A DNA stretch of 64,000 nucleotides from Mesorhizobium sp. L-2-11 (GTDB taxonomy: Bacteria > Pseudomonadota > Alphaproteobacteria > Rhizobiales > Rhizobiaceae), in the NCBI RefSeq assembly GCF_016756595.1, contig NZ_AP023257.1, positions 5,968,001 through 6,032,000 on the forward strand. Reading direction: 5' to 3'. The notes under the pieces were generated by a model. It was given only the letters and a program-made list of their open reading frames with translations, ran no database searches and was not told the DNA's origin. Both the position numbers and the translations under genes were made by a program. Each line of letters begins with the position of its first letter. Position 1 is the first letter of the stretch. Shown in pieces: positions 4,829 to 19,695 of the stretch.

Positions 4829-5047
4829 ATGCCGAAGGAAGAAGTCCTCGAGTTTCCGGGTGTCGTCACGGAATTGTTGCCCAATGCGATGTTCAGGGTG
4901 AAGCTTGAAAACGAACACGAAATCATCGCCCACACCGCCGGCCGCATGCGCAAGAACCGTATCCGCGTGCTGACCGGCGACAAGGTCCTTGTCGAGATGA
5001 CACCCTACGACCTGACCAAGGGCCGCATCACCTACCGTTTCAAGTAA
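4829..5047 (+). CDS. infA: Translation initiation factor IF-1
   Basis: This 72-residue single S1/OB-fold protein binds the 30S A site and cooperates with IF-2 and IF-3 in start-codon selection. The sequence [13 protein letters not shown] and the C-terminal [13 protein letters not shown] are characteristic IF-1 ends. Length and composition are typical. It is a conserved backbone gene with its own upstream gap (4739-4828) that probably contains its promoter. It lies 27 bases before maf in the same orientation. Confidence 0.97.
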
Positions 5048-5074
5048 GATCGTCAGAGCTCGGCCGGGACCGCG

Positions 5075-5701
5075 ATGAGCATTTTGCAGAAGCTCGTGCT
5101 TGCCTCGGGTTCGCCGCGCCGAATCGAGCTGCTGCAGCAGGCCGGCATCGAGCCGGACCGCGTGCTGCCGGCCGGTGTCGACGAAACGCCGCTGCGCGCC
5201 GAGCATCCGCGCTCGCTGGCCAAGCGCCTGTCGAAGGAAAAAGCCGAGAAGGCGCTGGCCTCGCTGCAGACCGAAGAGGATTATGCGCCGAGCTTCGTGC
5301 TGGCCGCCGACACGGTGGTCGCCGTCGGCCGGCGCATCCTGCCCAAGGCCGAAACGTTCGACGACGTCGTCAATTGCCTCGGACTGCTGTCCGGCCGTTC
5401 GCACCGGGTCTATTCCGGCATCAGCCTGATCACGCCGAGCGGCAAGCTGCGCCAGCGGCTGGTCGAGACCAGGGTGCGTTTCAAGCGGCTGCCGCGCGCC
5501 GAGATCGACGCCTATGTGGCCTCGGGAGAATGGCGCGGCAAGGCCGGCGGCTATGCCGTCCAGGGTCTCGCCGGCGCCTTCGTCGTCAAGCTTGTCGGCT
5601 CCTACACCAACGTCGTCGGTCTGCCGCTCTACGAGACGGTGGCGCTGCTGGCCGGCGAGGGCTTCAAGGTGCATGCCAATTGGCAGTCAGTTCGGCCATG
5701 A
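5075..5701 (+). CDS. maf: Maf-like nucleoside triphosphate pyrophosphatase
   Basis: Maf proteins hydrolyse non-canonical or modified nucleoside triphosphates to monophosphates as house-cleaning enzymes. Here 208 residues carry the N-terminal LASGSPRR signature and the VLAADTVV motif with the catalytic aspartate. [11 protein letters not shown] block lies near residue 155, all in the normal order. The stop overlaps the yacG start (ATGA at 5698-5701), which points to translational coupling. The gene looks intact. Confidence 0.93.
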
Positions 5702-6098: not shown

Positions 6099-6174
<76 letters not shown>

Positions 6175-6291
6175 TTCTACCTTGTTGTTTTCACTTACCT
6201 TTTCGGCGATTGCCGCAGCGTCGGCTTCGATCGGTTTGACGTTTTTGTCAGGCGGGTTTGACATTTTTTGTTCTTTTCACGTTCCGGGCGC

Positions 6292-6546
6292 TCATGGGAA
6301 AATGTGGCGCAACGTGGCCACGACGGCGCAATCCCGCGCCGTTGCTTCGTCGAAATTGATAGATCGAAGCCGGGCCCGCTCTTCGCGATAGAACTTATAG
6401 GCGGAGCGGGCGATTGCCCCTTTTCCTGTTCTCAAAGCCAGCACAACATCGGCGGTCTGCAGCGTTCCGATGCGAGAATTTCCAACGAGCGCGTCCTCCA
6501 CAACTCCGTCATCGGCCGCAGGAAAATGGATGATGTTGTCTCTCAC
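6292..6546 (-). CDS. Hypothetical protein downstream of the integrase
   Basis: This is an 84-residue soluble protein with no recognised domain. Its start codon overlaps the integrase stop by four bases (ATGA on the minus strand), so it is probably translated by coupling as the last gene of the excision/integration operon. The sequence begins MRDNIIHFPAADDG and has a basic middle (ARSAYKFYREERARLR). A role in recombination is suggested only by position. Confidence 0.55.
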   Translation of the reverse strand: MRDNIIHFPAADDGVVEDALVGNSRIGTLQTADVVLALRTGKGAIARSAYKFYREERARLRSINFDEATARDCAVVATLRHIFP

Positions 6547-7610
6547 TTCGCCCTCCCCTTGCGCCTGACCACCTCAGCGTCGAAATCAGTGACCACGGCT
6601 GACATTTTCCGGCTCTTGTTGGCGCGCTTAGAGTAATGCCGCGCCATCTCGATTGTCTTCTGGCCGAGCATGTCGGCGATCGTGCGCTCGTCGTATCCCA
6701 TTTCAGCGAGGATGGTCGCGACGGTATGGCGGAGACCTTTCAACGTCAGCCCCGGCTGCACGGCGCCAGAGCGCTCGAGCTCCTGCCGGATCGGTCGCCA
6801 GGACGCGCGGAAGCCTGAAGGCGTCCAGGGTTTGCCGTAGCTGTTGGCGCAAAGCGTGATGGCGTCATGCTTCGGCGCTACCGCCAACTCGGCCACGACG
6901 GGCGCTGGCAGGCGAAACCACATCGGAACGCCGGTCTTTCCCCGCCTGGCGTCGATCATGCCGTCAGAAACAGCCGTGGGTGGGATCTTAAGCGCGTCCT
7001 GCGGATCGAGGCCGCAATACATCATCAGGGCGATCGGCACGCGCATATGCGCCGGCAGTGCGGCGGCAACGGCATCGCGCTCGCTGTCCGACCACGGCCG
7101 ATTCGCGTCGGCCATACCGCGCGGCCGGCGGATGCCCTTGATCTTCATCGCCGGATTGATTTTTAGATAGCCGCGCTCGACGCCCCAAGCGAATGTGAGT
7201 GCCAGCACGGTCTTGACATAATTGCCAAACCGGCGGCCATGCTTGGCCGCAGCCTTGTCGCGGATCTTCACCACGAGAGGCGGGTTGAAGCGATCAAGCA
7301 TCGTTCCGGCGATCGGCTGCAAATAGTCAAAGCAGCGCTGATAGTCGGCGCGCGTGCGTGCAGCCAGGTCGGTGAAAAACACGCTGGCGCGATAGCGCGC
7401 GATCAGTTGGCCTAGTGTGCCAGGTTTCGGCTCGTCGACCTTGCCGGACAATTCCACGATCCGCGCGCACTCGGCAAAGAACGCAATGCTGCCGAGCGGA
7501 AACTTGGCCAGGTCGATCATGGCACCGGTCTTGCGGTGCCGGCAGCGCCACTTATAAGGCGGCTTGCGGTCCTGCCAGATTGCGAAGCCCTTGGCGCGCA
7601 CGATAGCCAT
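6543..7610 (-). CDS. Tyrosine recombinase (integrase) of element 1
   Basis: Site-specific integrase of 355 residues, pointing at the tRNA-Phe attachment site. The C-terminal catalytic domain has the box II KGLRHTVAT segment and the C-terminal HYSKRA with the nucleophilic tyrosine. At the usual box I position the sequence reads CGLDPQDAL. The first catalytic arginine is replaced by aspartate, as I recall from a related rhizobial integrase group. The N-terminal part (about 1-170) resembles a SAM-like core-binding domain. It overlaps the upstream HTH gene by one base (TGATG), indicating one operon with it. Confidence 0.88.
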   Translation of the reverse strand: MAIVRAKGFAIWQDRKPPYKWRCRHRKTGAMIDLAKFPLGSIAFFAECARIVELSGKVDEPKPGTLGQLIARYRASVFFTDLAARTRADYQRCFDYLQPIAGTMLDRFNPPLVVKIRDKAAAKHGRRFGNYVKTVLALTFAWGVERGYLKINPAMKIKGIRRPRGMADANRPWSDSERDAVAAALPAHMRVPIALMMYCGLDPQDALKIPPTAVSDGMIDARRGKTGVPMWFRLPAPVVAELAVAPKHDAITLCANSYGKPWTPSGFRASWRPIRQELERSGAVQPGLTLKGLRHTVATILAEMGYDERTIADMLGQKTIEMARHYSKRANKSRKMSAVVTDFDAEVVRRKGRAK

Positions 7611-7840
7611 CAGCCGAGCTTGCCGATGATGTCGTCATCGGCGGCGACGTCGCCGCCCTTCAGTCCATCGAGCCATGCGTCGCAGTCGTGCATGTCGTAG
7701 AGCTTGGCGCCGTGCGGCATCACGACAGGCGGCACGGCAATGGCAAGGCGCTTGGCGGGAATACCGCAATATGCCGCCGCCTCACGCTCTGAAAGCATTC
7801 GGCGCGGTGCAACGCGCAGATTAAGTGTTGCGATTGTCAT
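7610..7840 (-). CDS. HTH (excisionase/AlpA-like) DNA-binding protein
   Basis: The 76-residue product has the pattern LSEREAAAYCGIPAKRL followed by a short wing and DMHDCDAWLDGL. This is the layout of MerR/AlpA-type recombination directionality factors and helix-turn-helix proteins encoded next to integrases. Its stop shares a base with the integrase start (TGATG). Excisionase function is inferred from fold and position. It overlaps the upstream Arc-type gene by 20 bases. Confidence 0.7.
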   Translation of the reverse strand: MTIATLNLRVAPRRMLSEREAAAYCGIPAKRLAIAVPPVVMPHGAKLYDMHDCDAWLDGLKGGDVAADDDIIGKLG

Positions 7841-8006
7841 GTTCGTCGCCTCGAGCGTCGAGCGCCTTCTGCAGCATGAAATTGATCTGACCGTTCATTG
7901 TTCGCATGTTCTCGCGCGCGACTTCCGCGATACGGTTTCGCATGCCGTCGGGCATGCGAACAACGAACTTCTCCAGCAAATCCGAGGGCTGTTTCTGCTG
8001 TGCCAT
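7821..8006 (-). CDS. Arc-family ribbon-helix-helix regulator (leftward)
   Basis: The 61-residue protein carries the Arc/MetJ signature FVVRMPDGMRNRIAEVARENMRTMNGQI, a beta strand plus two helices. The start at 8006 is chosen because an AGGAGG Shine-Dalgarno lies 8 bases upstream. It heads the leftward operon Arc-HTH-integrase. Its promoter overlaps a palindrome (8051-8065), which suggests autoregulation. A homologous Arc gene is divergently transcribed at 8132. Confidence 0.8.
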   Translation of the reverse strand: MAQQKQPSDLLEKFVVRMPDGMRNRIAEVARENMRTMNGQINFMLQKALDARGDEHDNRNT

Positions 8007-8047
8007 GGCTGAGGCCTCCTGTGGGCAAATCATTCCAAGCCGCAACT

Positions 8048-8107
8048 ATCATAGCGGAGCGCTATCACTGTCAACAATCAGGCCATGTTTTTTTACTAGC
8101 GGAGCGC
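8048..8107. promoter_or_regulatory. Leftward promoter with embedded palindromic operator, second half-like site
   Basis: On the minus strand TTGACA (8069-8074) and TATGAT (8048-8053) are separated by 15 bases, giving a sigma-70-like promoter for the leftward Arc gene. The palindrome ATAGCG-GAG-CGCTAT (8051-8065) sits between and over the -10 element. The core TAGCGGAGCGC recurs at 8097-8107, just before the divergent Arc gene. This layout fits operators bound by one or both Arc-family proteins. Binding is inferred, not shown. Confidence 0.55.
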
Positions 8108-8131
8108 CACCAGACGAAATATGCTCGAAAA

Positions 8132-8458
8132 ATGGCACCAAAAATCTCCCCTTCCGATCTCGTCGACAAATTCGTGTTGCGCATGCCAGACGGCATGCGA
8201 GAGCGCATTGCCATCGAAGCTCACCGAAACAAGCGTTCGATGAATGCCGAGATCATAGAGGTTCTGGACCGCGAATTTCCTGCGGCGCCTTCGCTTGAAG
8301 AAATTTTCGAACAAGTCGACTTTCTCATCGACATGTACAAAAAAGATGCTGATGACCTGGTCCGACGCGACATGCTGTCGATGCTCTCGGTCATAAAGAT
8401 AAAGTTCGATGAGCTGCGCAAAAACAGGTCCGACAAACCGCTAGACTCTAGCGAGTGA
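8132..8458 (+). CDS. Arc-family ribbon-helix-helix regulator (rightward)
   Basis: This 108-residue protein repeats the Arc motif of its divergent neighbour (FVLRMPDGMRERIAIEAHRNKRSMN) and adds a C-terminal helical extension of about 60 residues rich in Asp and Lys. The start at 8132 is the ATG immediately before the Arc domain; upstream in-frame codons run through the intergenic operator and are unlikely to be coding. The pair of divergent Arc genes resembles an immunity/excision switch. Confidence 0.75.
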   Translation: MAPKISPSDLVDKFVLRMPDGMRERIAIEAHRNKRSMNAEIIEVLDREFPAAPSLEEIFEQVDFLIDMYKKDADDLVRRDMLSMLSVIKIKFDELRKNRSDKPLDSSE

Positions 8459-8891
8459 TCGGGCACTTCTGCGCCGTACCGTTCGCCTTGCCTGGTCCCG
8501 CCCGCGCCCGTTGTAAGGCTAAAGGTCGGCCATCGCCTTGATGTCGTCGACGAGGCTTTTGAGAAATGGCAATCTCGAGCTGCTCATCGTCACAAAAATC
8601 GCGCTCCCGCACCCTGACTTTCGCAGCCAGACCCTCAACGGTTTTGGCCTGGGTCTTCATGACCTTGTCGAAGGCGCGCGCGAAGGCTGCGGCCCTTTTC
8701 TCCTCCTTCTTTTCCGCCTTTGCGATGCGCGACTTGAGACGCGATCTGAGGGATCTGAGACGCTCTTCAAGCTCCTCCTCAAACTTCGCCGTCCGGTCCG
8801 TGGCCGCGTTCCATCGATCGCTCGCGGCGTTGAACTCTTGCTCCAGCTGGAGGAGTTTGGCATCGGGGTGGCGTCTGGCGGCTTTGCCCAT
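8448..8891 (-). CDS. Coiled-coil hypothetical protein, C-terminus apparently frameshifted
   Basis: From the ATG at 8891 (TGATG overlap with the upstream gene) the product has a long charged coiled coil, residues about 10-95. After residue ~110 the reading frame turns into an Arg/Pro-rich tail. An alternative frame instead continues as SLVDDIKAMADL and stops at 8519-8521. That ending resembles the C-terminus of the neighbouring upstream protein (ISIAADIRRLAGEAV). A one-base frameshift near 8560-8570 is therefore likely. Function is unknown. Confidence 0.55.
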   Translation of the reverse strand: MGKAARRHPDAKLLQLEQEFNAASDRWNAATDRTAKFEEELEERLRSLRSRLKSRIAKAEKKEEKRAAAFARAFDKVMKTQAKTVEGLAAKVRVRERDFCDDEQLEIAISQKPRRRHQGDGRPLALQRARAGPGKANGTAQKCPITR

Positions 8892-9544
8892 CACACTGCC
8901 TCACCTGCCAGGCGCCGGATATCGGCGGCGATCGAGATTAAGGCATCATTTTTGGCGGAAAAGTTGTTGAAATCCAGTCTGTCTGCCGCCCCGAGCTTGA
9001 CTACTATTCCCTGCAATGTGCTGGCCGGCGTTGCCAAAATTCGTTCGACGACCTTGAAAAACTCGTCGGTGCGCTCTCTGTAAGCCTCTTCTGCGGCATC
9101 GATGCCGGCCTCGCGGTATATCTCATCGACTTTGTCTTGGTGCGCCTCCTGCAAAGCCCTATACGCGGCCCGCTGCTCACCACACGCCCTATGCCAATCA
9201 CGCAAAGGTGCCGGCTGTTTCTCCGGATACGCTAGATCGCGCACCAGCATGCCGCCCATCATTTCGCTTATATGATTCGGCATGCTCGGTTCCTTCCATG
9301 CCGGCAGCTCCGCCGGAAACAGCTTATCGGCCCTCCTGCCGACCCGCTCGCAGGCCTTGTTAGCGCGATTCATCTGGGCCTCGGCTTCCGCCATTTCTTG
9401 ATCGAGCCAGAATAGATCGGCGTCGGGATGCTCCTTGATCGACGTGCCAGGCGTGCCAAGCGCAGTCTTGGCAAGAGCGGTCGACATTCCCGCAGCAATA
9501 GCGGTAGCGGCGACGATTGAGCGGCGGGAAACGTGTACGTTCAT
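8891..9544 (-). CDS. Hypothetical protein with Tat-like N-terminal signal
   Basis: From the ATG at 9544 (GAGG eight bases upstream) the 217-residue product starts with SRRSIVAATAIAAGMSTALA. This is a twin-arginine-like n-region and hydrophobic core, followed by an Ala-rich possible cleavage site. The rest is helical and charged without a known domain. It probably is an exported helical protein. Export by Tat is inferred from the SRRS motif and is not certain. It is coupled to the following coiled-coil gene. Confidence 0.6.
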   Translation of the reverse strand: MNVHVSRRSIVAATAIAAGMSTALAKTALGTPGTSIKEHPDADLFWLDQEMAEAEAQMNRANKACERVGRRADKLFPAELPAWKEPSMPNHISEMMGGMLVRDLAYPEKQPAPLRDWHRACGEQRAAYRALQEAHQDKVDEIYREAGIDAAEEAYRERTDEFFKVVERILATPASTLQGIVVKLGAADRLDFNNFSAKNDALISIAADIRRLAGEAV

Positions 9545-9787
9545 TGCAAGATCCTCTCGTTCGTTGGGAACGGGCTCTATCGCCCGCGCGTCGATTCGAG
9601 GCGCGGAACAGACGTCGAAGCGAGTCGAGCGGCCCGGAAAGCTGGGGATTGTTTTCGGCGGGCAAACCTTCGGCGGCTGCCCGAACAAGTGCGTTCGGCA
9701 TTAGAGTTTCTTCCCCTTGCGTCTAAGTTACATTTTTCCTATAACTCTGAAGGAAATCTAAAGTCAATCGTTTTCATTTAAGGCTAT

Positions 9788-10048
9788 ATGAAATTGACAA
9801 TCTCTCCCGCTCAATGCAGGGCAGCACGAGCGCTGATCGCCTGGTCTCAGGATCAACTGGCCGAAGCGGCACATGTTGCAACTGCGACGATCGCCACGTT
9901 TGAGACCGGCAAACGCGTTCCATATCCCAGGACAGTAGATGACATTCGAGAGGCGTTAGAAGCCGCCGGGATCGTGTTCATCGACGAGAATGGCGAAGGC
10001 CCGGGTGTGAGATTGAGGAAAAGCGCAATGACCAACTTGCCGCAATAG
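9788..10048 (+). CDS. Xre-family helix-turn-helix regulator
   Basis: The 86-residue protein has a typical Cro/C1-type HTH: ARALIAWSQDQLAEAAHVATATIATFETGKR, residues about 13-43, then a short C-terminal strand region. It lacks a CI-like cleavage/dimerisation domain. It lies directly upstream of, and in the same direction as, a RexA-like and a RexB-like gene. That repeats the order repressor-rexA-rexB known from phage lambda and suggests it controls that module. Confidence 0.82.
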   Translation: MKLTISPAQCRAARALIAWSQDQLAEAAHVATATIATFETGKRVPYPRTVDDIREALEAAGIVFIDENGEGPGVRLRKSAMTNLPQ

Positions 10049-10180
10049 GCCCCTCTCCCCGGTTCCGTCCGCCAGAATTGTAAAGTATTGCAACGCGCCA
10101 CTACGCCGGGTGGTGCCCTCGCGGAGATTACACTTTTGTGATCATCTGGGGGTCGGTGACGAATCATGGGGGGTTAAAGG

Positions 10181-11227
10181 ATGACTGCCAAAAGATGCAA
10201 AATTCACTATAGGAAGCTTCGGCGTGATAATTCGCAGTTTCCAACGGAGACTTTAAGCGCAAAGATCCGGCAGGCGCTCAATACCAAGAAAGGCAACTCC
10301 CGGATTGCCGAGAGTGTCAAACACCGCATCGCCGATGTGCCTAAAGCGGAGGGATATCAGCGCTTCCTGAACGACTTTCACGAAACAGATGAATATGTCT
10401 TCGGTGACATTTGCCTCTTCTCTCCGGGCGAAATGCAAGCCTTGCTTCAGCTATCAGCAGACCCCGCTCATCCTACCCTCGACGAGGTGATGAAGGCCTG
10501 GGCCATCGCGGAATCAAAGGCGCCGGACGGGCACGAATATCTCCACGGCATCGCGTACTGGTTGGCGGTTGGCGACCATTTCTATCAAATCCAGCACGTC
10601 ACGTTGCAAGCCAAGTCCATGGAGGAATACCTTACCTGGCTACTCCGCGACCAGGCGGGTGTCATCTCGGCAGCCCAGTACGTGGAATTGCAGGCCGAGT
10701 TTGATCGCGACCAAGTCGGTGGTGACCTCGGCGACGTGAAGTCGGTTGAGATTGGCGGTCTTGTGCCCGAAACCGTGCGTCCCGCCTTGCCGGCAATCGC
10801 AACGCCGCAGGTTGTCGATGTCGAAACCCACGAGAGCCTGGGCGAGAAAATTGCGGCCGGCTGGGGGAAGGCCAGGAAGATTATCGATGATCTTCTGGGG
10901 CCGGTGGAGGCGGAAAAGTTGATAGAGTCCATGCCCCCCGATGCAGCGTTGGAAGTTACAGTCAACATCGGATATCGTGCGACCAAGAGGAAATTCGGTA
11001 AGGAGTTTATGGGCAATCTAGCAGCAGGTTTGCGAAACGCGCCGGATGGCGAGTTGAGGGTTCGCGGGCGCGATGGTGAAATCAAAGGTGATGACGCGCG
11101 TCTCTCTGCTGACATGACGGTGCGAAAGATGTCTGATACCAGCGGTCTCCTTGATCTTGAACACGCGCTTTCACAGATGCTCGAAGTCCATCGGCGTTTT
11201 TTGCATGATGGAAAGATTGTCAGTTAG
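10181..11227 (+). CDS. RexA-like soluble protein of a two-gene Abi-type module
   Basis: This 348-residue soluble protein has no named catalytic motif. By eye its layout follows lambda RexA: a short N-terminal strand region (CKIHYRKLRRDN), then a central strand segment near YWLAVGDHFYQIQHV. A C-terminal region follows, with a gene-specific pattern of DDLLGPVEAEKLIESM, EVTVNIGYRATKRKFGKE and a final helix. RexA is a DNA-binding sensor that triggers the membrane protein RexB during superinfection. The next gene is a multi-pass membrane protein. The assignment rests on architecture and gene order and needs a profile search; an unrelated phage moron is the alternative. Confidence 0.5.
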   Translation: MTAKRCKIHYRKLRRDNSQFPTETLSAKIRQALNTKKGNSRIAESVKHRIADVPKAEGYQRFLNDFHETDEYVFGDICLFSPGEMQALLQLSADPAHPTLDEVMKAWAIAESKAPDGHEYLHGIAYWLAVGDHFYQIQHVTLQAKSMEEYLTWLLRDQAGVISAAQYVELQAEFDRDQVGGDLGDVKSVEIGGLVPETVRPALPAIATPQVVDVETHESLGEKIAAGWGKARKIIDDLLGPVEAEKLIESMPPDAALEVTVNIGYRATKRKFGKEFMGNLAAGLRNAPDGELRVRGRDGEIKGDDARLSADMTVRKMSDTSGLLDLEHALSQMLEVHRRFLHDGKIVS

Positions 11228-11244
11228 CCCCCATATTTAAGCAA

Positions 11245-11817
11245 ATGAACATACGTTGGAGCCATATCGTCCTTCCCCTTGCCGGCGCAATAGCTGCGGC
11301 GGAGCTTGGATCTGTGGCTTTTTGGGAAGCGGCTAAACCTTCGCTTCTGACTGCATTGTCGGTTATCGCGGCAGGCGTTCTTGTTCGGTTGGCTCGGGGC
11401 CTGCCGTTCAGCAATCCTGATCAGTTTGAACTTGGCGAAGTCCGGCTTATTGCGGCGGCGATAAAGCAGTCGATCCGCGCTCTTCGCGCACTGATCGGCG
11501 TTGTCTTTTTGGCCATGGGTTCGCTGGTTTTCGCGAAAGCACTAGGCGCGGCTTTGACGTCTGCCGCTTTCATTCCTCCGAAAGTCCTCCCCTACGTGGA
11601 GCCAGGAGTGTCCGCCGTCGTAGGCTTCCTGCTTACGTACGTCTTTGTTCGCATTTTTTCTGTGATCAAAGGCGACGTCAGCTTGGTTGATCTTCAATCG
11701 GAGCTGTTGGTCAAATCAGTCGAACGAAAGCAGGCGGAGCGCTTTGATAAGTCGCTAAAGCAATCCGATACGCCACCGATGAAAATTCCGGAAGGCTACG
11801 GGAAGATCATTCAATAG
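11245..11817 (+). CDS. RexB-like four-helix membrane protein
   Basis: The 190-residue product has about four hydrophobic segments, near residues 7-25, 32-50, 80-100 and 118-140, followed by a cytoplasmic-looking charged tail with EKKQ/ERKQ-type residues. Lambda RexB is likewise a four-helix inner-membrane protein that depolarises the cell when activated by RexA. The start lies 17 bases after the RexA-like stop, so the two are co-transcribed. Function as an abortive-infection effector is inferred from the pairing. Confidence 0.5.
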   Translation: MNIRWSHIVLPLAGAIAAAELGSVAFWEAAKPSLLTALSVIAAGVLVRLARGLPFSNPDQFELGEVRLIAAAIKQSIRALRALIGVVFLAMGSLVFAKALGAALTSAAFIPPKVLPYVEPGVSAVVGFLLTYVFVRIFSVIKGDVSLVDLQSELLVKSVERKQAERFDKSLKQSDTPPMKIPEGYGKIIQ

Positions 11818-12628
11818 CATTCGGCTGCTGGCTCGACCTTTGGCGCGAAGAGGGCCATGTCGCGCTGGCCGATGGCGCCATGGGAAGATTCCCGTGGGCC
11901 CAAATTCTTCAGGCGCTGCTTGCTCCCGTGATCGCTCTGGCCGTAGGTTTATAGCGCGAGCATGCGACCGAAACCGGCCGAGAACCCACCTTCGCCCTTC
12001 ACCCGTCTGCCCAATACTTTAAGGCGGGCGAAGATCTCGGCCGAGCCGAAGCGAAGGCGAGGCCGAGGCTGGAGGCCGTTGGCAGCGCCTGCCGTCATCC
12101 AGCCAGTGTTAGGGGAACCGTTGCCCACGCCGCCGGTGCCTGTCGAGACTTCGACGCCATAGGTCACATTGAACAAGCGCGCCGCATCTAGGTCGCTAAA
12201 ACGTTTACCCGAATCAGAACGATACTGTCGGGGCTGCTTTCGGCACTTCTGGATGCCTATTTTCCCCTGAAAAAACAATGTCAAGAAAGTTCTACACAGA
12301 ATGCAGCGGCCTGTGGATAACTCGCTAATTGCATGAAATCGCGTCACCTTTTGGCAGATTGGGACCAAAAGGCGAACAAAATCGCCTGTGCAGCACACTG
12401 TCGGGTGCTTGACTGGGAAGTCGGCGTCATCATGATCGATAGTTGATGGTGATCGAAAGGAAGCCGTCGCGGTTTTGCACCCCAGCGACGGCCCTCCCCG
12501 AAAATCACTTCCTGCAAATCTTTCCCAAGGCGCAGGAGGCGGCTCTTGTCAAGCGTGGACACACTGTCCGGTACGGCGCCGTTGGTCAAGCCTTGGGTCA
12601 AATCCAAAGCCTGGAAAGGCCCAATGGT

Positions 12629-12829
12629 ATGACCGAAATGCAACTTCAAACTAAATCCCTCACCTACGAAGATGCCATCGAAGTGTGGCGACTTCATAGT
12701 CAAGGGTGGTTCCAGCATCGGATAGCGGCAAGGTTCAATGTAAACCCTGGCCGAATCAATGAGGTGTTGAAAGAGCACAAACACCGTGGCAGCCGCGTCG
12801 ACGCTGCGGAACCTGGGAGGGCCGCATAA
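12629..12829 (+). CDS. Small HTH-containing hypothetical protein
   Basis: Starting at the internal ATG at 12629, the 66-residue product has a helix-turn-helix-like core: TYEDAIEVWRLHSQGWFQHRIAARFNVNPGRINEVL. This resembles small resolvase-type HTH proteins found on rhizobial phages and plasmids. The upstream extension in the same frame has unrelated composition and no good start. The stop runs directly into the next start (TAAATG), so the two are translationally coupled. Confidence 0.6.
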   Translation: MTEMQLQTKSLTYEDAIEVWRLHSQGWFQHRIAARFNVNPGRINEVLKEHKHRGSRVDAAEPGRAA

Positions 12830-13039
12830 ATGGCGGACCGTCCGTTTCCATCGTTTTGGCTCTACAAGGATGCGCGTGGTGAGTGGCGTTGGACGTTTCA
12901 CGCCACCAACCGCGAACCGATTGCTGTATCCAGCGAGGGTTATGTCCGCAAGGCAGACTGTAGGCATGGCATCGATCTGATAGCGGTCGGCACCAACTGG
13001 CCGGTCTGGTCGCCCATCGACCAGGTCAACATGCCCTAA
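12830..13039 (+). CDS. DUF1508 (YegP-like) small protein
   Basis: The 69-residue product fits the DUF1508/YegP fold. The FWLYKDARGEWRWTFHA strand segment is followed by SSEGYVRKADCRHGI, which corresponds to the family's S-E-x-Y-x-x-K-x-x-x-x-x-G-I pattern. One repeat unit is present. Family members are small proteins of unknown function. The gene follows the HTH gene without a gap and is followed by a terminator-like hairpin. Confidence 0.72.
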   Translation: MADRPFPSFWLYKDARGEWRWTFHATNREPIAVSSEGYVRKADCRHGIDLIAVGTNWPVWSPIDQVNMP

Positions 13040-13041
13040 GA

Positions 13042-13092
13042 CAAAAAAAAGAAACACGTGCGCCTGGCGATTTCGCTGGGCGCACGTTTCCC
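13042..13092. terminator. Hairpin terminator after the DUF1508 gene
   Basis: A run of A (13042-13050) is followed by the stem ACGTGCGCC (13056-13064) and GGCGCACGT (13079-13087) and then TTTCCCTT. The layout can terminate transcription from the plus-strand HTH/DUF1508 pair and, with the A-run read as U on the other strand, leftward transcription as well. Confidence 0.6.
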
Positions 13093-13296
13093 TTCACCCG
13101 TCTCCCCAATATTTCAGGCGGGCGTAGACCTCGACCGAGCCGAAGCCGAAGGCGAGGCCGAGGCCATCCGCCTGGGTCGCCGTGGTCCGATATTCGAGGC
13201 GATGAGAAAGAGGCGGACTTGACTCAGCAAGGCGCGAGGCACCTGGTCGAGTTCAATATCGAGGATGCAGCATAGATTGCTGCAGGACCAAAAGCG

Positions 13297-13328
13297 AAAA
13301 GGCCGCGCCCTTCGCCGGTCGGCTTTTT
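13297..13328 (-). terminator. Terminator of the leftward late operon
   Basis: Immediately after the last leftward tail-cluster gene (stop at 13358), AAAAGGCCG (13297-13305) pairs with CGGCTTTT (13320-13327). On the minus strand the hairpin is followed by a T-rich stretch. The position fits the end of the 18.9-13.4 kb operon. Confidence 0.55.
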
Positions 13329-13357
13329 CCTTTACGTCGCCGGTCCGCGCTCTTCTT

Positions 13358-13897
13358 TCAACGCTTCAACGCCGCGCGAACCGTAGACCCGTCCGCGCTG
13401 CCATCTTCGGCAGGTGCCCTTGTCAAGGAGGGGTTTTCCACCTCGAACTTGGCATTCCGAGCCTCTGTGAAGCTCTTCCAAGAGGAGGCTTCCCCGCGAG
13501 CTGCCGACGGGCGTGCGAGGCCGGCAACGTTGATCCCACCGGCTGACAGACGCATCGCCTCATAGGCTTCGGCGTTCACCACCGTGCCGCCCAGGTGACC
13601 GGCCACAAAGGACGCGACGTCAGCTGTCGCCATGTCCGGATTGCTCATTGCCAAATCGAACGCAGCCGCCATACGGGCGCCATCGCCCTTGATGCCGGGA
13701 GAATTAAAAACCGCCGCGACACGATCATTCACCGCTTTGCGCCCGACCTTGAAGGCTGAAGCGTAAGCCTCGTCGACGCTTGCCGGGCTCTCGGTCGATC
13801 CATTTGGAGGACATCCAAAGTAGCTCGCCTCAACCGAGCCGTCATCGGTCGGTGCAAGTATCGCCTCACGAATTGCCGCTAACATGCTATTTGCCAT
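13358..13897 (-). CDS. Phage-related protein resembling the C-terminal part of head-maturation proteases
   Basis: The 179-residue protein has a central Ala-rich helical region (VNDRVAAVFNSPGIKGDGARMAAAFDLAMSN). This resembles the tail region that follows the protease domain in S49/ClpP-type prohead proteases, but no catalytic Ser-Lys segment is present. It begins MANSMLAAIREAILAP, so it looks like an independently expressed scaffold-like piece or the remains of one. It is the last gene of the leftward operon. Confidence 0.5.
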   Translation of the reverse strand: MANSMLAAIREAILAPTDDGSVEASYFGCPPNGSTESPASVDEAYASAFKVGRKAVNDRVAAVFNSPGIKGDGARMAAAFDLAMSNPDMATADVASFVAGHLGGTVVNAEAYEAMRLSAGGINVAGLARPSAARGEASSWKSFTEARNAKFEVENPSLTRAPAEDGSADGSTVRAALKR

Positions 13898-13924
13898 TGG
13901 TCGTCACGCTCCTCTTTTTGAAGT

Positions 13925-14479
13925 TCAGGCGTCCGCCGGCTCCATTCCGAGCTCTTTGTCGGGGGCCAGCAGAATGGCGGGGTTGGCGTCTTCGCGGCGT
14001 GACACGCTGGCGCCGAGCCCGCGCTCCAGCTCACGACAGGCGACTTCCTCGGCAATTTCCGTCGACAGGATATCGGCGTCGATTTTCGCCAGCTGTGCCG
14101 AGCGAGCCTCGGGCGAGATGCCATCGCTCGGCAAGGTCGCCAGAATCCCCGCCTTCAGCCGGCCGGCGTCGAAAGCAGCTAGCACGCCGAAAGGATCCTC
14201 GACTAAGGCGTGCTTCAGATCGGCGCTCAAACTGCCCCGATAGAGCATAAATTCCCCGCGCACGAGCGCCGGAAAATGCAACGGCCTGCGATCCAGAGCT
14301 GCGGCGATCTCCTTGTCGATTTCCCGCTCCATCGTGGCGCGATCGTTGGGCGTGAACTCAACATTGTGACGCTTGGATTGCAGGTCGGTGATCCTGTCGC
14401 GAAGTGCGTCCAGGTCGGAGCGAGCGGCGCGGACCGTGCGGTCGAGCGTCGCCAGAGCGGTTTTGAAGATGCCTTTCAT
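13925..14479 (-). CDS. Hypothetical protein of the tail operon
   Basis: A 184-residue, mostly helical and charged protein, beginning MKGIFKTALATLDRTVRAARSD and containing an internal coiled-coil-like segment (LRDRITDLQSKRHN). No domain is recognised. It overlaps the upstream gene by four bases (ATGA) and belongs to the leftward operon. A structural or accessory phage role is suggested only by position. Confidence 0.55.
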   Translation of the reverse strand: MKGIFKTALATLDRTVRAARSDLDALRDRITDLQSKRHNVEFTPNDRATMEREIDKEIAAALDRRPLHFPALVRGEFMLYRGSLSADLKHALVEDPFGVLAAFDAGRLKAGILATLPSDGISPEARSAQLAKIDADILSTEIAEEVACRELERGLGASVSRREDANPAILLAPDKELGMEPADA

Positions 14480-14898
14480 TGACGGTTACCCCCGTTGGCG
14501 TCGCCGGGCGCCGCTGCCGCCTGCGGGCTCGAACCGGGTCCGCTCGCCGGAAACGAATGACCGGGCTCGCCCGGCAGGAAGAATGATGACCCACGCCGCG
14601 GAGCTGCATACTCTTCGCAACGCGAAGAGACCTGTTTCAGGTGGTGCCAACTCTCTGACAGTTGGTCCTTTTTGTCTTTCAGGCGCCCGATCTCGGCCTC
14701 GAGCTTTTCGATCTCGGGCTGGTGCTCCTCAGCAAACCCTTTCTGGTGAGCATACCGCGCGACACGCTGCTTGAGCGCGAAGAGCTTTTGCCGAGCTTCT
14801 CGCTCTGCTTCGCTGGCATTCATGAGCACCGCGTGCGCGCCGTCGGCCGCTGCGGTGATCGTGGCCAGCCTCTCCGGGTCGATTGAGAATTTTTGCAT
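14476..14898 (-). CDS. Coiled-coil hypothetical protein of the tail operon
   Basis: From the ATG at 14898 the 140-residue product starts MQKFSIDPERLATI. It contains a long coiled coil (about residues 25-95, with EKLEAEIGRLKDKKDQL) and ends in a Gly/Pro/Ala-rich tail. Upstream in-frame residues are Arg/Cys-rich and unlikely to be translated. It overlaps the following gene by four bases. No function is assigned. Confidence 0.55.
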   Translation of the reverse strand: MQKFSIDPERLATITAAADGAHAVLMNASEAEREARQKLFALKQRVARYAHQKGFAEEHQPEIEKLEAEIGRLKDKKDQLSESWHHLKQVSSRCEEYAAPRRGSSFFLPGEPGHSFPASGPGSSPQAAAAPGDANGGNRQ

Positions 14899-14987
14899 CT
14901 GACGACTGCCGTTTTTGATTTTGAAAGATGGGCTAAAGCATCGGCGCTTTGGCCGCGCGGCGCATCCGAAATGCAGAAAAATGCAGT

Positions 14988-15386
14988 TCACAGATCGTAG
15001 TCGAGATCGTCCATGATCTGGCGCTCGGAAACAGGCCGGATGTTAGAGCGGCTGAGCCGCTGGAAATAGTCCGCGATGGTTCCGGCCGGCGCATCGTCCC
15101 TGGCAGCGGCACTACGCCATTCGACCGCCATGAGGCGCGCCGCCGTCGTGCGCGGCGTGTTTGGGTAGAAGTTTTGCCAGATGCGCCTCAGCGCCGTTCT
15201 GCGAATAAGACGCGGGTCTGGCTGCCGGTCATCGTCCGATTCGACGATGTCGCGAAGCATGAGCATCAACCAGAGCGCCTCGCCCCGGTCGACCGGCCTG
15301 TCGGCCGCAATGAAGTCGGCGAGACGGCGAAGCCTATCGGCCGCTTCGATCAAACCCTGGTCGACCGGCGCACCCATTTCGCTCAA
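14988..15386 (-). CDS. Hypothetical protein of the tail operon
   Basis: A 132-residue helical protein with acidic ends; a typical segment is RGEALWLMLMLRDIVESDDD, followed by a basic region (RLIRRTALRRIWQNFYP). There is no signal peptide and no known domain. It is spaced 89 bases from the next gene downstream. The length and compact helical composition fit small phage or island proteins of unknown role. Confidence 0.55.
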   Translation of the reverse strand: MSEMGAPVDQGLIEAADRLRRLADFIAADRPVDRGEALWLMLMLRDIVESDDDRQPDPRLIRRTALRRIWQNFYPNTPRTTAARLMAVEWRSAAARDDAPAGTIADYFQRLSRSNIRPVSERQIMDDLDYDL

Positions 15387-15455
15387 GCCTTGGTGGGGAG
15401 AGGCTTACCCCCCGCCCCCCATAAGATTCTGAGCCACGCCCGCAAAGTATCGCCT

Positions 15456-15764
15456 TTAGACATCGACAAGACAGGGCTCCAGCGCGCCGCCAAGCACGTA
15501 CACCACGCCGCCTTCCATCTCGCCGGCAATGCCGCCCTGAGCCTTCACCGCCGCCACGCCGGCCGCGCTGAGCGCGCCGGTCGCCAGGGCGAGACTTTCC
15601 CCGCACCGATCGCACATCGTGCACCATTCGCCTTTCTCGCGATGCCAGGCGCCCATGACGTGGCCGCGCGCGGTTGCCCGGCGCGTAGCGAGACCGACCT
15701 CATCGGCGGAAGGGATGTTCTGTTGCGGAACATCCCTCTTCCCTTGACCACCGTGTTGCTGCAC
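15456..15764 (-). CDS. Small protein with CxxCxxC zinc-knuckle-like motif
   Basis: The C-terminal half is convincing: residues after about 35 read GAWHREKGEWCTMCDRCGES. This is a Cys-rich knuckle, followed by an Ala/Gly-rich hydrophobic segment. The N-terminal part and the start codon are uncertain, and an internal Met upstream of the Cys motif (MGAWHREK) is an alternative start. It lies in the leftward operon downstream of the tape measure gene. Function is unknown. Confidence 0.45.
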   Translation of the reverse strand: MQQHGGQGKRDVPQQNIPSADEVGLATRRATARGHVMGAWHREKGEWCTMCDRCGESLALATGALSAAGVAAVKAQGGIAGEMEGGVVYVLGGALEPCLVDV

Positions 15765-15917
15765 GTCGCCATTCTTCTGTGCGGCATCGTATTCGTCAGC
15801 CAGTCGCCGCTTGGCACCGGCCTCGATGCGGCTTGCGCCGTGGCGAGGCTCAACGCCGGCAGCAAGGGCGCTGGCGCCGACGGTGAAGGCCGAGGCGGGC
15901 CGACAAGCGATATCCTC

Positions 15918-16136
15918 TTACGCATCGACCCCCGCGCCCCCGTCCGCCAGGTGCGCAGCGACCTCCTGCCAAAGATCCGCGATGCGATTGCTGGCTTCGG
16001 CGATCATCAGCCGGCGGAACAGCCGCTCCTCCCGGTCCTCGATCTCGGCCATGGCGCAAGCGATCGTGACCAACTCCGTGTGTTCCTCACCGATCCGCCG
16101 AAACCTCTGCGACAGGAATTCGCCGTCGATCGCCAT
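15918..16136 (-). CDS. Small acidic helical protein after the tape measure gene
   Basis: This 72-residue protein (MAIDGEFLSQRFRRIGEEH...) is entirely helical and acidic, with no known domain. It starts 15 bases after the tape measure stop in the same operon. Small genes in this position often encode tail or lysis accessories, but nothing in the sequence decides that here. Confidence 0.5.
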   Translation of the reverse strand: MAIDGEFLSQRFRRIGEEHTELVTIACAMAEIEDREERLFRRLMIAEASNRIADLWQEVAAHLADGGAGVDA

Positions 16137-16151
16137 TTGCGCGGCTCCCTT

Positions 16152-17918
16152 TTAGAAGTCTCTCGCATCGCCCCTGCCGGCATTGCTCTTGCCGGTATTA
16201 GCTCTGACGTCGTTCAGCTGCCATCTGCTGTTCGGCTGCGCAATCGGTACCGGCCGAACGTTGGCGTTGAACTCGGCCGCGAGCTGCGCGCCCATACCGG
16301 CGATCATCTTTGCAAATGCATTGCCGGCCTGCTGGCCGCCGCTGGCGATCTTGTCCTCGAGCTCCGCGCCGACGGGAGCAAACCAGTCGCCAGCCGGAGA
16401 CGAACCACCGTCCGCACCAGGCGGGCGCGACCAGGCGCTTTCCGGCCGATAGGAAGATCCTCGGCCGCCGTGGCCTGGCTTGCTGTGCACCACAGGACCG
16501 AGAGGACCTCCCAACGGCACGGGTATCGGTACCCCATTGGCGTCTACGCCCGCGCCGAAAGTCGTCTCGCGTGGCAAGCCGGCGCGCCGCGAATCGCCGT
16601 ATTGCTTGTAGGCAGCGGCCGAGCGGCGCTCTTCCTCAGTTCGATAGCCGCCGATCCGGGCCATCTGCTGCTTGTCTTCGTCGCCGTGTATGATGCCCCA
16701 GGCGGTGCGCGCGGCGAACCCGTGCACGCCGCTTTTTTCGAGACCGGCATTGACCGCGTTCATGTATCCGATCGAGTCGACGACATATTTCAGGCCGTCG
16801 ATGATGCCCAGCGAAGCCGATAACTCCCCGGCTTGAATCTGCAGCTCGCTCATCGTCTGTTTGATCTGGTCAAGACCGGCCTGCGTGTTCTTCAGCAGCT
16901 GTGCATTGTTGCGATCGATCACACCAGGCGCATTCGCCGCGATCTCCTTTTGGGCGGCAAGGATCTCGTCATATTTGGTGAGGATCACCGTTGCGGCCTG
17001 GCGGGCTTCCTTGTCGCCAAAAATCTGGCCCAGCCGATCCGCCTTGCCGCCGGTGGCCTCCATCAAAATATCGTGCATCACCTTGAGCATGTCCTCGCCA
17101 TTTTCGCGCGCGGCTGACATGCGTTTCAGAAAGCCTCCGCTGATTTTTTCGAGCCGCTTCTCGACGTCCGGGCTGGAAAGCTTTTCGAGGAAATCGCCGA
17201 CTGACGTGGCGGCCTCACCCACGGTGCCGGTATAGTTCGCCATAGTCTCGAGCAATGCGACCATCCGCAGTGCGCCCTCGTTCCCCTGGAACCCCTGCTT
17301 GGCCGCCGACGGCAGCAGCGAGGGAAGGAAGCGCGCCATGTCCGGCGCCTCGAATTTGCCGGCCGAGCTGCCGGCGGCGATGATCGAGAAGAACTTCTCG
17401 GCGTCCTTCGTCGTCAAGCCGAGCGACAGCCTCGCCGTGTTCCAACTGTTCACGACATCCTCGCCCGACGCGCCGAGCGCCTGCTGCGACTTGGTAAGCA
17501 AGTCCAGATGATTGCGGATATCCGTCAGGCTGGCGCCGGCGGCCGCGTAGGCGCCGACCGTCTCCATCACCTGGTCGGACTGCAAGGCATAGGCTTTGGC
17601 GAAGTGGTTCACGTCCTGATACAGGCCCTGCATTTCTTCGCGGGACGCGCCTAGGGTGAGGCCGATTCGCGTCAGCTGTCGCTCGACCGAGGCAAACTCC
17701 TTGATCGATTGCGTGACAGCGTAGCCGGCCACCGCCGGGCCAAGAAAGCGGCTGACGGGCATGGCCGACATCGTGCGGCTGATCAGGGTTTGCGCCTTGT
17801 TGAAGGCGAGCGCTTTGCGCTCGACCTGGTTGAGCTTGGCGCCCATCTTGTCAAACGCTCCCATCGGGCCCAGCTTGGCGGAGAGCCGCATCACGGCTTC
17901 GATCGTACGGTTGCTCAT
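16152..17918 (-). CDS. Phage tail tape measure protein (TP901-type)
   Basis: The 588-residue protein sets the length of a phage tail and acts in assembly around the tail tube. The N-terminal two thirds carry the TP901-type core with repeats typical of the family: SVERQLTRIGLTLGASREEM, FAKAYALQSDQVMETVGAYAAAGA and an LGLTTKDAEKFFSIIAAGS block. The C-terminal region is Gly/Pro/Arg-rich. At 588 residues it is on the short side, implying a short tail or a shortened gene. Its ATG overlaps the stop of the frameshifted tail chaperone product, as in many siphophage and myophage tail operons. Confidence 0.88.
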   Translation of the reverse strand: MSNRTIEAVMRLSAKLGPMGAFDKMGAKLNQVERKALAFNKAQTLISRTMSAMPVSRFLGPAVAGYAVTQSIKEFASVERQLTRIGLTLGASREEMQGLYQDVNHFAKAYALQSDQVMETVGAYAAAGASLTDIRNHLDLLTKSQQALGASGEDVVNSWNTARLSLGLTTKDAEKFFSIIAAGSSAGKFEAPDMARFLPSLLPSAAKQGFQGNEGALRMVALLETMANYTGTVGEAATSVGDFLEKLSSPDVEKRLEKISGGFLKRMSAARENGEDMLKVMHDILMEATGGKADRLGQIFGDKEARQAATVILTKYDEILAAQKEIAANAPGVIDRNNAQLLKNTQAGLDQIKQTMSELQIQAGELSASLGIIDGLKYVVDSIGYMNAVNAGLEKSGVHGFAARTAWGIIHGDEDKQQMARIGGYRTEEERRSAAAYKQYGDSRRAGLPRETTFGAGVDANGVPIPVPLGGPLGPVVHSKPGHGGRGSSYRPESAWSRPPGADGGSSPAGDWFAPVGAELEDKIASGGQQAGNAFAKMIAGMGAQLAAEFNANVRPVPIAQPNSRWQLNDVRANTGKSNAGRGDARDF

Positions 17919-18363
17919 TTTTGGCTCCTATGGTTGTAGTATTCGACGGCGCGAGCGAACCAGGCGAGGACCTCCGACATCGGCATGCAGGCGACATCGG
18001 CCGCCCGCATGCCGAACCGGAAGATCAGCTCGTCGGCGCGGCTTCCGACTTCGAAGGCTGCGAGGCGGTTGCTGGCTCGCCAGACGTAAAAAAATCGAGC
18101 ACAGCGACCCGAACCGCCCTGGCGTCTTTGATGCCGAGCTCGCCAAGCAAGTCGACGCCTGGCTCCACGATGCAACGCCGGACATAGGCGGCGACCGTGT
18201 CGACGTTCTCGATGACGACGTTGTTGCCGGCAGCGCGCTGCATCTCGTAGGGCTCGCCCAGCTGCAGCAAATCGTTGAACCGCGGCTCGCGCACCTTCAC
18301 CGTTTCGAAAACAGTGCCATGCGCTTCATAGCGGCGGGACAGGGTGACGGTCTTCTCAGTCAT
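17915..18363 (-). CDS. Tail assembly chaperone extension (GpE-like) made by -1 frameshift
   Basis: The second frame from about 18094 down to 17915 encodes a GpE-like tail: RADELIFRFGMRAADVACMPMSEVLAWFARAVEYY. It has no good start of its own. At 18088-18094 the coding strand reads T TTT TTT, a classic slippery heptamer, in the zero frame GAT-TTT-TTT-ACG. A -1 slip joins the upstream chaperone to this frame exactly, giving FFYVWRAS. This is the gpE/gpE+E' (lambda G/GT) strategy, in which the longer product recruits tail tube subunits to the tape measure. Confidence 0.75.
18025..18363 (-). CDS. Phage tail assembly protein (zero-frame product)
   Basis: From the ATG at 18363 the 112-residue product begins MTEKTVTLSRRYEAHGTVFETVKVREPRFNDLLQLGEP, the usual N-terminal layout of P2 gpE-type tail assembly proteins. 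It contains the acidic Ser/Thr/Pro-rich C-terminus reached only when no frameshift happens. The upstream regulator gene overlaps its start by four bases. Together with the frameshift product and the tape measure protein it forms a tail-morphogenesis unit. Confidence 0.82.
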   Translation of the reverse strand: MTEKTVTLSRRYEAHGTVFETVKVREPRFNDLLQLGEPYEMQRAAGNNVVIENVDTVAAYVRRCIVEPGVDLLGELGIKDARAVRVAVLDFFTSGEPATASQPSKSEAAPTS

Positions 18364-18860
18364 TTCGCATTCTCCTTCAGGTTGCATGATGTGTGCAGCA
18401 CGTGTGCACACGCGTTTGTGCGTGTACCGCTTGCAGCGTCGCCTACTAGAAAAATCCCGGGCTCCCCCGGGCCCGTATGGGTCGGAGACGCTGATACGGT
18501 CCCTACACCGGGGGGTGGGGTCAGCGGGGCAACGGGGTCGGTAGTAGCGACCCCGTCATTCAGCGCGCCAGGGGCGCGACGCTTCATTGCCTCGCGAACG
18601 GCTGGCGGAAAATATCTCATCAACTCGCGGACCTTCTTGGCGCGAAAGCCAAGGCAGGAAGCTAGATCATCTACACTCCAGCCGCGCTCGGTCACCAACA
18701 GACGGACCGCCTCAGCCTGTAGGGCTAGACGCAATCGGATGATCCGGGCCGGATCCTTGGCGAAGTCAGGCTCCTCCAAATAAAGGCTCTGTCTCAACCT
18801 CCTCGTGCCAATCACCCGGCCGGCCACTGACCTCTCAAATCGGTGATGATCCTTATCCAT
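18360..18860 (-). CDS. HTH protein heading the tail operon
   Basis: The 166-residue product from the ATG at 18860 (AGGGA four bases upstream) has a helix-turn-helix-like segment, LLVTERGWSVDDLASCLGFRAKKVRELMRYFPP, about residues 55-90. A disordered Pro/Gly/Thr-rich tail follows. Its stop overlaps the tail chaperone start. It is the first gene after the ten-copy site array at 18882-19111, so it may bind those sites and control the late operon; this is inference. Confidence 0.6.
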   Translation of the reverse strand: MDKDHHRFERSVAGRVIGTRRLRQSLYLEEPDFAKDPARIIRLRLALQAEAVRLLVTERGWSVDDLASCLGFRAKKVRELMRYFPPAVREAMKRRAPGALNDGVATTDPVAPLTPPPGVGTVSASPTHTGPGEPGIFLVGDAASGTRTNACAHVLHTSCNLKENAK

Positions 18861-18881
18861 TATTTCCCTCTGCACCACTTA

Positions 18882-19111
18882 GCGACACTTTAGCGATACT
18901 TTTAGCGATACTTTATTGTGGAATATCAATGGGTTCGATACTTGCGGCACTTTTTCTCGCCTATAGCAGTAAAATCGTCCGCTGATCTTTTGTTTGTCTC
19001 GCGTATAGGGACGCCAAGAAGTATCGCGAGGTATCGCAACTATTTGAAATCGTTTGCCTAATCTCGCTGGAAGAAGTGTCGCTAAGTGTCGCAAACCCCC
19101 GCAAGTGTCGC
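18882..19111. repeat. Array of ten 9-bp sites in two opposed groups
   Basis: Five copies of GCGAYACTT-like sites lie in one orientation (18882, 18893, 18905, 18935, 18944). Five copies of the inverse AAGTRTCGC lie to the right (19019, 19029, 19074, 19084, 19103). Within groups the spacing is often 9-12 bases, one helical turn. The array fills the AT-richer gap upstream of the leftward late operon. It looks like iterons or a multi-site operator. Neither a protein nor a replication function is proven. Confidence 0.7.
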
Positions 19112-19190
19112 GGCAAAAAACACAATGAAAACAACAAAAGCGCTACTTTTCGGGAATGTGTGACGCCAAAGCGGGGGTACGGGGTTTTGC

Positions 19191-19565
19191 TCATTTGAAC
19201 CTCGCTTCGTAAGTCACGACGCGGCCGGGCACACGTCGAATGGAGGTCTGCTGCATGAGCAAACCGAACCGGGTCAGCGTCATCTCCGGCGCTCCTGTCT
19301 CGACGGCCCAATTGCAATAGGCTCGATAAAGTTGCCGAGCGGCTATGTTGATACGGCTATCCGCGACCAGGCGCGCCTCAATAAACGCTGCCACGTGCGG
19401 CAGAAGGCTCTGATGAGAGGGGGTCCGGGGGTTTTTCCCGTCGACGGCGGGAAGGCCAAGATCGTACCAGAGGCGTCGGGCGGCCTTGGCCCCAAACAGC
19501 CTTCCTGCGACATCGGCAATCTGAGCCTTCGAGACCAGCAGACTGAAGTGATCCGAGTTTGACAA
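19191..19565 (-). CDS. Protein resembling the C-terminal winged-helix part of phage primases
   Basis: The region reads LVSKAQIADVAGRLFGAKAARRLWYDLGLPAV and later RQLYRAYCNWAVETGAPEMTLTRFGLLMQQ. That second block resembles the D5/primase C-terminal winged helix (short helical pattern LYRAY..W....G.....RF). No helicase or primase motifs precede it, so it is either a small stand-alone domain or a truncated gene. A TTG at 19565 is the first plausible start; the reading frame further upstream runs into the att repeat. Confidence 0.45.
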   Translation of the reverse strand: MSNSDHFSLLVSKAQIADVAGRLFGAKAARRLWYDLGLPAVDGKNPRTPSHQSLLPHVAAFIEARLVADSRINIAARQLYRAYCNWAVETGAPEMTLTRFGLLMQQTSIRRVPGRVVTYEARFK

Positions 19566-19647: not shown

Positions 19648-19695
19648 GACTGAAAATCCGCGTGTCGGTGGTTCGAATCCGCCTCTGGGCACCAT
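19648..19695 (+). repeat. Second att copy: 48-bp duplicate of the tRNA-Phe 3' end
   Basis: Bases 19648-19695 match 6128-6175 perfectly and include the T arm and encoded CCA of tRNA-Phe. The 5' half of the tRNA is absent here, so this is not a functional tRNA. It marks the right end of element 1 and at the same time the left end of the intS-bearing element 2. That is the expected result of tandem integration at one tRNA. Confidence 0.95.

Follow-up and report, generated by a model that had tools for sequence, protein, structure and literature searches.

The window, the whole 64,000-nucleotide stretch of Mesorhizobium sp. L-2-11 DNA that we analysed, contains a gene for a RexA-like soluble protein followed on the same strand by a gene for a RexB-like membrane protein, with 17 bp between the end of the first and the start of the second in the ORF list (Table 1). 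A first-pass annotation had proposed such a pair, with four helices and a charged tail on the membrane partner. Both ORFs were found, and a hydropathy scan of the 190-aa membrane protein gave four helices, with starts near residues 8, 32, 82 and 123, plus a tail of 49 residues that has nine K/R. The 348-aa soluble protein matched phrog_3482 over residues 2–347 of 348 in a profile search (E 3.3e-71), as did all 41 aligned soluble proteins, the window's included. No Pfam, NCBIfam or PADLOC model matched the 348-aa protein at E values up to 10. Its gene is present as a single copy in the source genome.

Table 1. Features of the gene pair and of the surrounding element, in window positions
Feature	Position	Strand	Details
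Left attachment repeat	6128..6175	+	48 bp; tRNA-Phe 3' end (tRNA 6099-6174); exact repeat
Tyrosine integrase of element 1	6543..7610	-	phrog_1 integrase, E 4.2e-31
Arc-like regulator	7821..8045	-	phage-family match
Xre-type HTH gene (neighbour only)	9788..10048	+	86 aa; HTH_31 E 3.3e-7, HTH_3 E 1.6e-5
RexA-like soluble protein gene	10181..11227	+	348 aa, ATG; family phrog_3482, without assigned function
RexB-like membrane protein gene	11245..11817	+	190 aa, ATG; four predicted helices; charged tail ending PEGYGKIIQ
Phage tail tape-measure protein	16152..17918	-	588 aa; phrog_34270, E 3.4e-54
Phage tail protein	18025..18411	-	phrog_24302 E 1.7e-20; phrog_166 tail E 8.5e-8
Right attachment repeat	19648..19695	+	48 bp, identical to left; exact repeat

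The pair sits in what had been annotated as element 1, and this element proved real: 13.5 kb (6128–19695) lie between 48-bp direct repeats of tRNA-Phe sequence, and an integrase and phage tail genes lie inside. Four of the ten other element proteins scanned matched phage families (the integrase, the Arc-like regulator and two tail proteins), and we call element 1 a decayed prophage. The Arc-like ORF (7821–8045, − strand) overlaps an opposite-strand ORF (7898–8458, +) whose C-terminal part was also Arc-type by eye. About 200 bp past the right repeat begins a 441-aa ORF (19892–21217) that by eye resembles a second integrase, which suggests that two elements sit in tandem at this site.

Distribution of the family

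Relatives of the soluble protein were found in 22 loci from species genomes and in draws of 35, 3, 8, 13 and 2 loci from viral contigs, many of them repeated between draws. Among 50,697 phage records a single one, Escherichia phage Perceval, carried a relative (22% identity), and one of 72,556 plasmids did so, from Azospirillum. A relative was present in 3 of 297 sampled genomes of the window's family and in 8 of 398 of its phylum, its own genome being counted in both. In the genus of a Pseudomonas relative, 7 of 249 genomes carried the soluble protein (two were known beforehand); in that relative's class, 1 of 312 genomes had a Pfam RexA match, a rough contrast given that samples and methods differ. 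The nearest copies came from Mesorhizobium MAGs.

Pairing, co-inheritance and selection

We counted copies with a first gene of at least 285 aa and at least 600 bp of downstream DNA, and accepted as a partner an ORF of 140–235 aa with at least two predicted helices located within −85 to +200 bp of the first gene. All 67 distinct intact RexA-like ORFs, the window's included, were followed by such a small membrane-protein ORF; redundancy was removed from this count only for identical last 150 residues, and near-identical ORFs remain. At least three helices were predicted in 66 of the 67 partners. By comparison, a partner of this kind followed 4 of 198 further long ORFs from these loci, a background in which some ORFs are not genes. 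The closest relative of the window copy, L066 from a Mesorhizobium MAG, entered the count through a 346-aa ORF with another start, and four loci (L040, L041, L070, L121) were left out as fragments or for having too little DNA.

Distances among the soluble proteins correlated with those among the membrane proteins (r = 0.93, 41 pairs), a value that none of 2000 permutations reached and that is expected for genes inherited together. The membrane partners were also related to one another: in a tblastn search of the collected loci, a small database, the window's protein matched the partners of L107 and L115 at E ~3e-12. Measured against L067 and L066, dN/dS was 0.03 for the soluble-protein gene and 0.09–0.11 for the membrane-protein gene, and both genes are under purifying selection relative to these two copies; against L044 the synonymous sites were saturated and gave no ratio. 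We concluded that the RexA-like protein and the four-helix membrane protein form a conserved unit. Low dN/dS, the phrog_3482 match and the pairing in all 67 testable copies together indicate that the pair is more than chance.

The same data bear on the idea that the pair is a non-functional leftover in a decaying prophage. This idea draws on the scarcity of phage-family matches in element 1 and on relatives in which the first gene is broken. In L066 its frame is interrupted near the start (5001–5210), with 97% identity after the break, through either real decay or an error of metagenome assembly; in L121 (4001–5057) it is split into two overlapping frames, with the membrane gene still open; and in L040 and L083 it is apparently broken. 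Against this, both window genes are intact, their dN/dS values are low, and 67 intact pairs are known. We consider a mere remnant very improbable.

The upstream neighbour and CI repressors

The first-pass annotation had read the Xre-type gene together with the pair as the lambda order cI-rexA-rexB. The Xre gene lies 132 bp before the soluble-protein gene, outside the range annotated for the module (10181–11817). L066 shares 91% DNA identity with the window over 10180–11846 and nowhere else in its 7.2 kb, which reach 5 kb upstream of the shared block and only ~0.5 kb further downstream. A second relative, L067, matched at 77% over 10189–11825 only, despite having ~4.4 kb or more on each side. 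The DNA in common with the nearest copies is thus confined to the two genes, which places the Xre gene outside the module. A tblastn search of the collected relative loci (E up to 1e-3) gave no match to its protein, which was also missed by the CI profile; this profile likewise found no CI-like ORF within the window's first 22 kb. We therefore rejected this 86-aa HTH protein as a cI partner; in the window, Xre-rexA-rexB is a chance arrangement of neighbouring genes. Within the defence libraries, the best match of the Xre protein was the PADLOC model Control_protein, a restriction-modification control protein (E 6.5e-14).

The CI-rexA-rexB order is nevertheless real in some relatives. Using the CI profile, we detected a same-strand upstream CI repressor in 26 of 69 loci, corresponding to 17 of 57 distinct ones, at distances of 55–1039 bp; five of these 17 had supplied the profile and match by construction, and 12 had not. 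The profile found no CI-like ORF in the available DNA of the other 40 distinct loci, and none upstream in 14 loci that are window-like or alphaproteobacterial, <2 kb of upstream DNA being available for three of them. In phage Perceval a CI repressor, the soluble-protein relative and a transmembrane protein are adjacent in that order on one strand, surrounded by immunity, replication and recombination genes. The lambda order that had been proposed thus holds in Perceval and in 17 of 57 distinct loci, but not in the window, where the Xre gene is not the equivalent of cI. A place behind a CI repressor is typical of RexAB-type systems without being universal.

Some copies appear to lie outside phages. 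Judging by sequence motifs, the L003 copy stands between transporter-like ORFs and the L067 copy near sigma-factor-like and pseudouridine-synthase-like ORFs, all of which we take to be host genes. Directly after the pair in L067 (6831–7370) is an ORF that we read as NYN-type nuclease-like, possibly another defence gene.

These neighbourhoods allow two further readings to be weighed. The first is that the two genes are a membrane toxin-antitoxin pair or a holin-like lysis-accessory pair unrelated to Rex. A small membrane protein in a prophage would suit this, as would an ORF in L009, by our reading endolysin-like, that lies ~1.2 kb downstream of the pair on the other strand. A weak match of the membrane protein to the holin family phrog_21335 (E 0.33) is at chance level, however, and we rejected a holin identity. 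The genes around the Perceval pair belong to immunity, replication and recombination, and searches with the larger protein gave no holin, toxin or antitoxin family; its 348 aa would also be long for an antitoxin, and we regard this reading as improbable.

The second reading, raised for lambda RexA, is that the pair mainly tunes the choice between lysogeny and lysis, exclusion being a side effect. The CI repressors upstream of 17 distinct loci are in keeping with it, but the CI profile is blank in the window's first 22 kb and upstream in the window-like loci, and the L003 and L067 copies lie among genes that we read as the host's. Lambda RexA has been reported to bias the bistable switch (PMC11077077), but RexApp, the soluble protein of a Pseudomonas putida system taken up below, was without effect on its repressor promoter in the experiments described in PMC12894663. 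Tuning of lysogeny as the main function therefore seems quite improbable.

Comparison with lambda RexA and RexB

Low similarity to RexA and RexB had been noted, and none was significant by Pfam, hhalign or HMMER, tests that also miss the relation between lambda RexA and CarolAnn gp44. Pfam RexA (PF15969) matched neither the window protein (E up to 10) nor a 24-member alignment that includes it (E up to 1); Pfam RexB (PF15968) did not match the window protein and was absent from the 25 families listed, of 33, for the 24 aligned membrane partners. In control searches lambda RexA matched its model at 1e-97 and lambda RexB at 8.5e-92, and CarolAnn gp44 and gp43 matched neither. Searches of PDB sequences with the soluble protein (phmmer and profile) gave no RexA match, one of them returning three unrelated chains at E 0.56–0.86. 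Scored against the family with HMMER (300 shuffles per target), lambda RexA, Sbash gp30 and CarolAnn gp44 lay in the noise, and the RexA proteins of CarolAnn, Sbash and Sejanus had no similarity to the soluble protein above controls.

Deepening the lambda family shifted the best hhalign alignment into the expected register (the dimerisation domain, residues 143–234) without significance: lambda residues 166–221 stood opposite family columns 220–287 with P 0.065, compared with 0.14 when the control was reversed. The RexA fold (PDB 8TWQ) combines a split globular domain with a dimerisation domain and is RdgC-like (RdgC, PDB 2OWL). The top score of the hhalign comparison, 25.1, belonged to a reversed actinophage control, and the positive control, lambda RexA versus CarolAnn gp44, failed as well. 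One sequence added to the lambda set, L149, was read as a 69-aa fragment and not a RexA gene, and could make no contribution. Because the accepted relation between lambda RexA and CarolAnn gp44 also fails in them, such tests cannot decide descent from lambda. The lambda DNA-binding residues R219 and K221 fall by eye opposite R293 and R295 of the window protein, at positions that vary across the 41 aligned proteins. The pair is RexAB by architecture; by sequence, descent from lambda is not shown.

The architectural likeness to lambda consists of the gene order, a soluble protein and then a four-helix protein, and of the CI repressor upstream in part of the window's relatives. The window proteins are longer than those of lambda (348 and 190 aa versus 279 and 144), and the loops of lambda RexB (21, 17 and 13 residues) differ from the 5, 31 and 22 of the window membrane protein.

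Membrane layout and the C-terminal tail

Two other layouts were nearer to the window's than that of lambda RexB: the loops measure 4, 29 and 12 residues in CarolAnn gp43 and 7, 31 and 4 in Sbash gp31. CarolAnn gp44/gp43 and Sbash gp30/gp31, gene pairs reported to confer defence (PMC6426606, PMC6426596), share with the window the two-gene architecture, a short hairpin, a central loop of 29–31 residues and a C-terminal tail. They differ in having no significant sequence similarity in either protein; CarolAnn gp43 reached no better than E 0.0019, in a 3-sequence search with filters off. Changes of R70 or D73 in the central loop of Sbash gp31 are reported to abolish defence (PMC6426596). In the central loop of the window protein, E65 corresponds to E, D or Q in 40 of the 41 partners.

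Part of the membrane partners, the window's among them, share the motif P-x-[GDN]-[YF]-G near the C terminus; the window protein has it as PEGYGKIIQ, with the tyrosine at Y185. Its [YF]-G step was present in all 20 partners whose first protein is at least 30% identical to the window's and in none of the 21 others. In L010 the proline of the motif is replaced by arginine.

BstA of Salmonella phage BTP1, a prophage defence gene of similar size just after the repressor, was rejected as the identity of the soluble protein. The BTP1 annotation shows no small membrane gene next to bstA, and BTP1 BstA scored −2.0 against the soluble-family profile, indicating no sequence relation. A KilA-N-like domain is also reported for BstA (PMC8585504), whereas the window protein has no Pfam match.

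Possible relation to RexABpp of Pseudomonas putida

RexABpp (PP_5643/PP_5644) of P. putida prophage P1 was described by Rosendahl et al. in 2026 (PMC12894663). According to that report, both genes are needed for defence, RexApp binds DNA, and triggered RexBpp stops growth and impairs the membrane, with membrane damage in only a small part of the cells; the two-hybrid test described gave no RexApp-RexBpp contact, and HHpred related PP_5643 to lambda RexA (98%, E 3.2e-5). Like the window copy, RexABpp pairs a soluble protein with a four-helix membrane protein in a prophage; unlike it, RexABpp sits downstream of a CI-like repressor. The first-pass suggestion of a new module was thus only partly right, since a RexAB-type pair of the same layout has been published (PMC12894663).

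We compared the positions of RexBpp suppressor residues with the membrane partners. The partner of L119 has W25, F35 and Y181 at precisely these positions, and those of L101, L104, L105 and L096 have them shifted by a shared offset of 6. A single common offset accommodated all three residues in 4 of 41 partners, each belonging to the 20 rows nearer the window, and in 5 of 40,000 shuffles at any offset from −8 to 8; this triple was picked after seeing the fit, and L55, T103, S145 and G153 are out of place at that offset. Three of these other suppressor residues fitted L096 at an offset of −12. When any three or more of the seven residues were allowed, some offset fitted in 670 of 10,000 shuffles, compared with 4 of 41 partners. 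The window membrane protein fitted only one of W25, F35 and Y181 at its best offset. At the fitting offset, Y181 falls on the conserved tyrosine of the tail motif that the window protein carries.

The any-three-of-seven control and the post hoc choice of the triple weaken this link. We treat it as a weak lead, a fit of spacing to published suppressor positions. Tagged RexApp has a reported mass of 37.5 kDa (PMC12894663), and the Pseudomonas-type relatives L101–L108 come to 38.8–42 kDa as read; with masses above that of the tagged protein, none of L101–L108 is RexApp itself.

Proposed mechanism

Our main reading, to which we assign a probability of roughly 65%, is that the pair is a RexAB-type abortive-infection module made up of a DNA-sensing trigger and a membrane pore. 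It is based on the constant pairing, the membrane architecture, the purifying selection, the phage and prophage setting, and the CI repressor upstream in some relatives. We infer DNA binding, triggering, pore formation and phage exclusion by analogy with work on RexABpp, CarolAnn, Sbash and lambda.

The two proteins would act together, as their pairing supports. The soluble protein, probably a DNA-binding dimer, would sense an infecting phage, perhaps through replication or recombination intermediates, as extrapolated from RexApp, lambda RexA and homologues (PMC11077077). It would then open the membrane protein, a presumed four-helix oligomeric pore, as RexABpp genetics suggests. Permeabilisation or depolarisation of the inner membrane would follow, and growth and phage output would stop.

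The chief competing reading reverses the roles, with the soluble protein as an effector that its membrane partner restrains until infection. Mycobacteriophage Butters gp30/gp31, described in PMC12894663 as having the same two-gene architecture, provides the precedent, and the sequence is silent on which protein is the effector. In RexABpp, by contrast, overexpressed RexApp was toxic only with RexB present, and the 38 escape mutants comprised 30 without the prophage, seven with rexB mutations and one that had lost the expression cassette (PMC12894663). RexABpp may or may not share the family. We judge the reversed arrangement unlikely, and prefer the soluble protein as trigger and the membrane protein as pore.

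Significance for Rex systems

The pair appears to belong to a wide and little-catalogued family of phage-defence pairs and, by analogy, probably works like the membrane-damaging Rex system of lambda. If the family works as the described RexAB-like systems do, it would comprise dozens of pairs in Alpha-, Beta- and Gammaproteobacteria, located in phages, in prophages and apparently outside them. By the account in PMC12894663, only five RexAB-like systems had been described before, and no rhizobial Rex system stood among the papers listed in our searches of the open-access literature. The family libraries that we searched do not name these pairs as defence. The RexAB models of DefenseFinder are reported to be taken from Pfam or COG (PMC9090908), and for this reason DefenseFinder would probably miss the phrog_3482 family.

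A more far-reaching proposal, which we advance tentatively and at below even odds, is that phrog_3482 and its membrane partner constitute a large mobile Rex class missed by Pfam- and PADLOC-type models, many of whose members have moved out of the CI-repressor niche and spread as two-gene cassettes. In the window's part of this class, the pore would be gated by the conserved cytoplasmic tail P-x-[GDN]-[YF]-G, engaged or released by a DNA-bound RexA-like dimer. The conserved tail residue is possibly, going by spacing, the site of the RexBpp Y181H suppressor, and with it the way in which RexA triggers RexB would become testable.

Lastly, the betaproteobacterial partners of L077 and L078 carry a YNxVFDPKSGL tail at the place where the PxGYG motif stands elsewhere.
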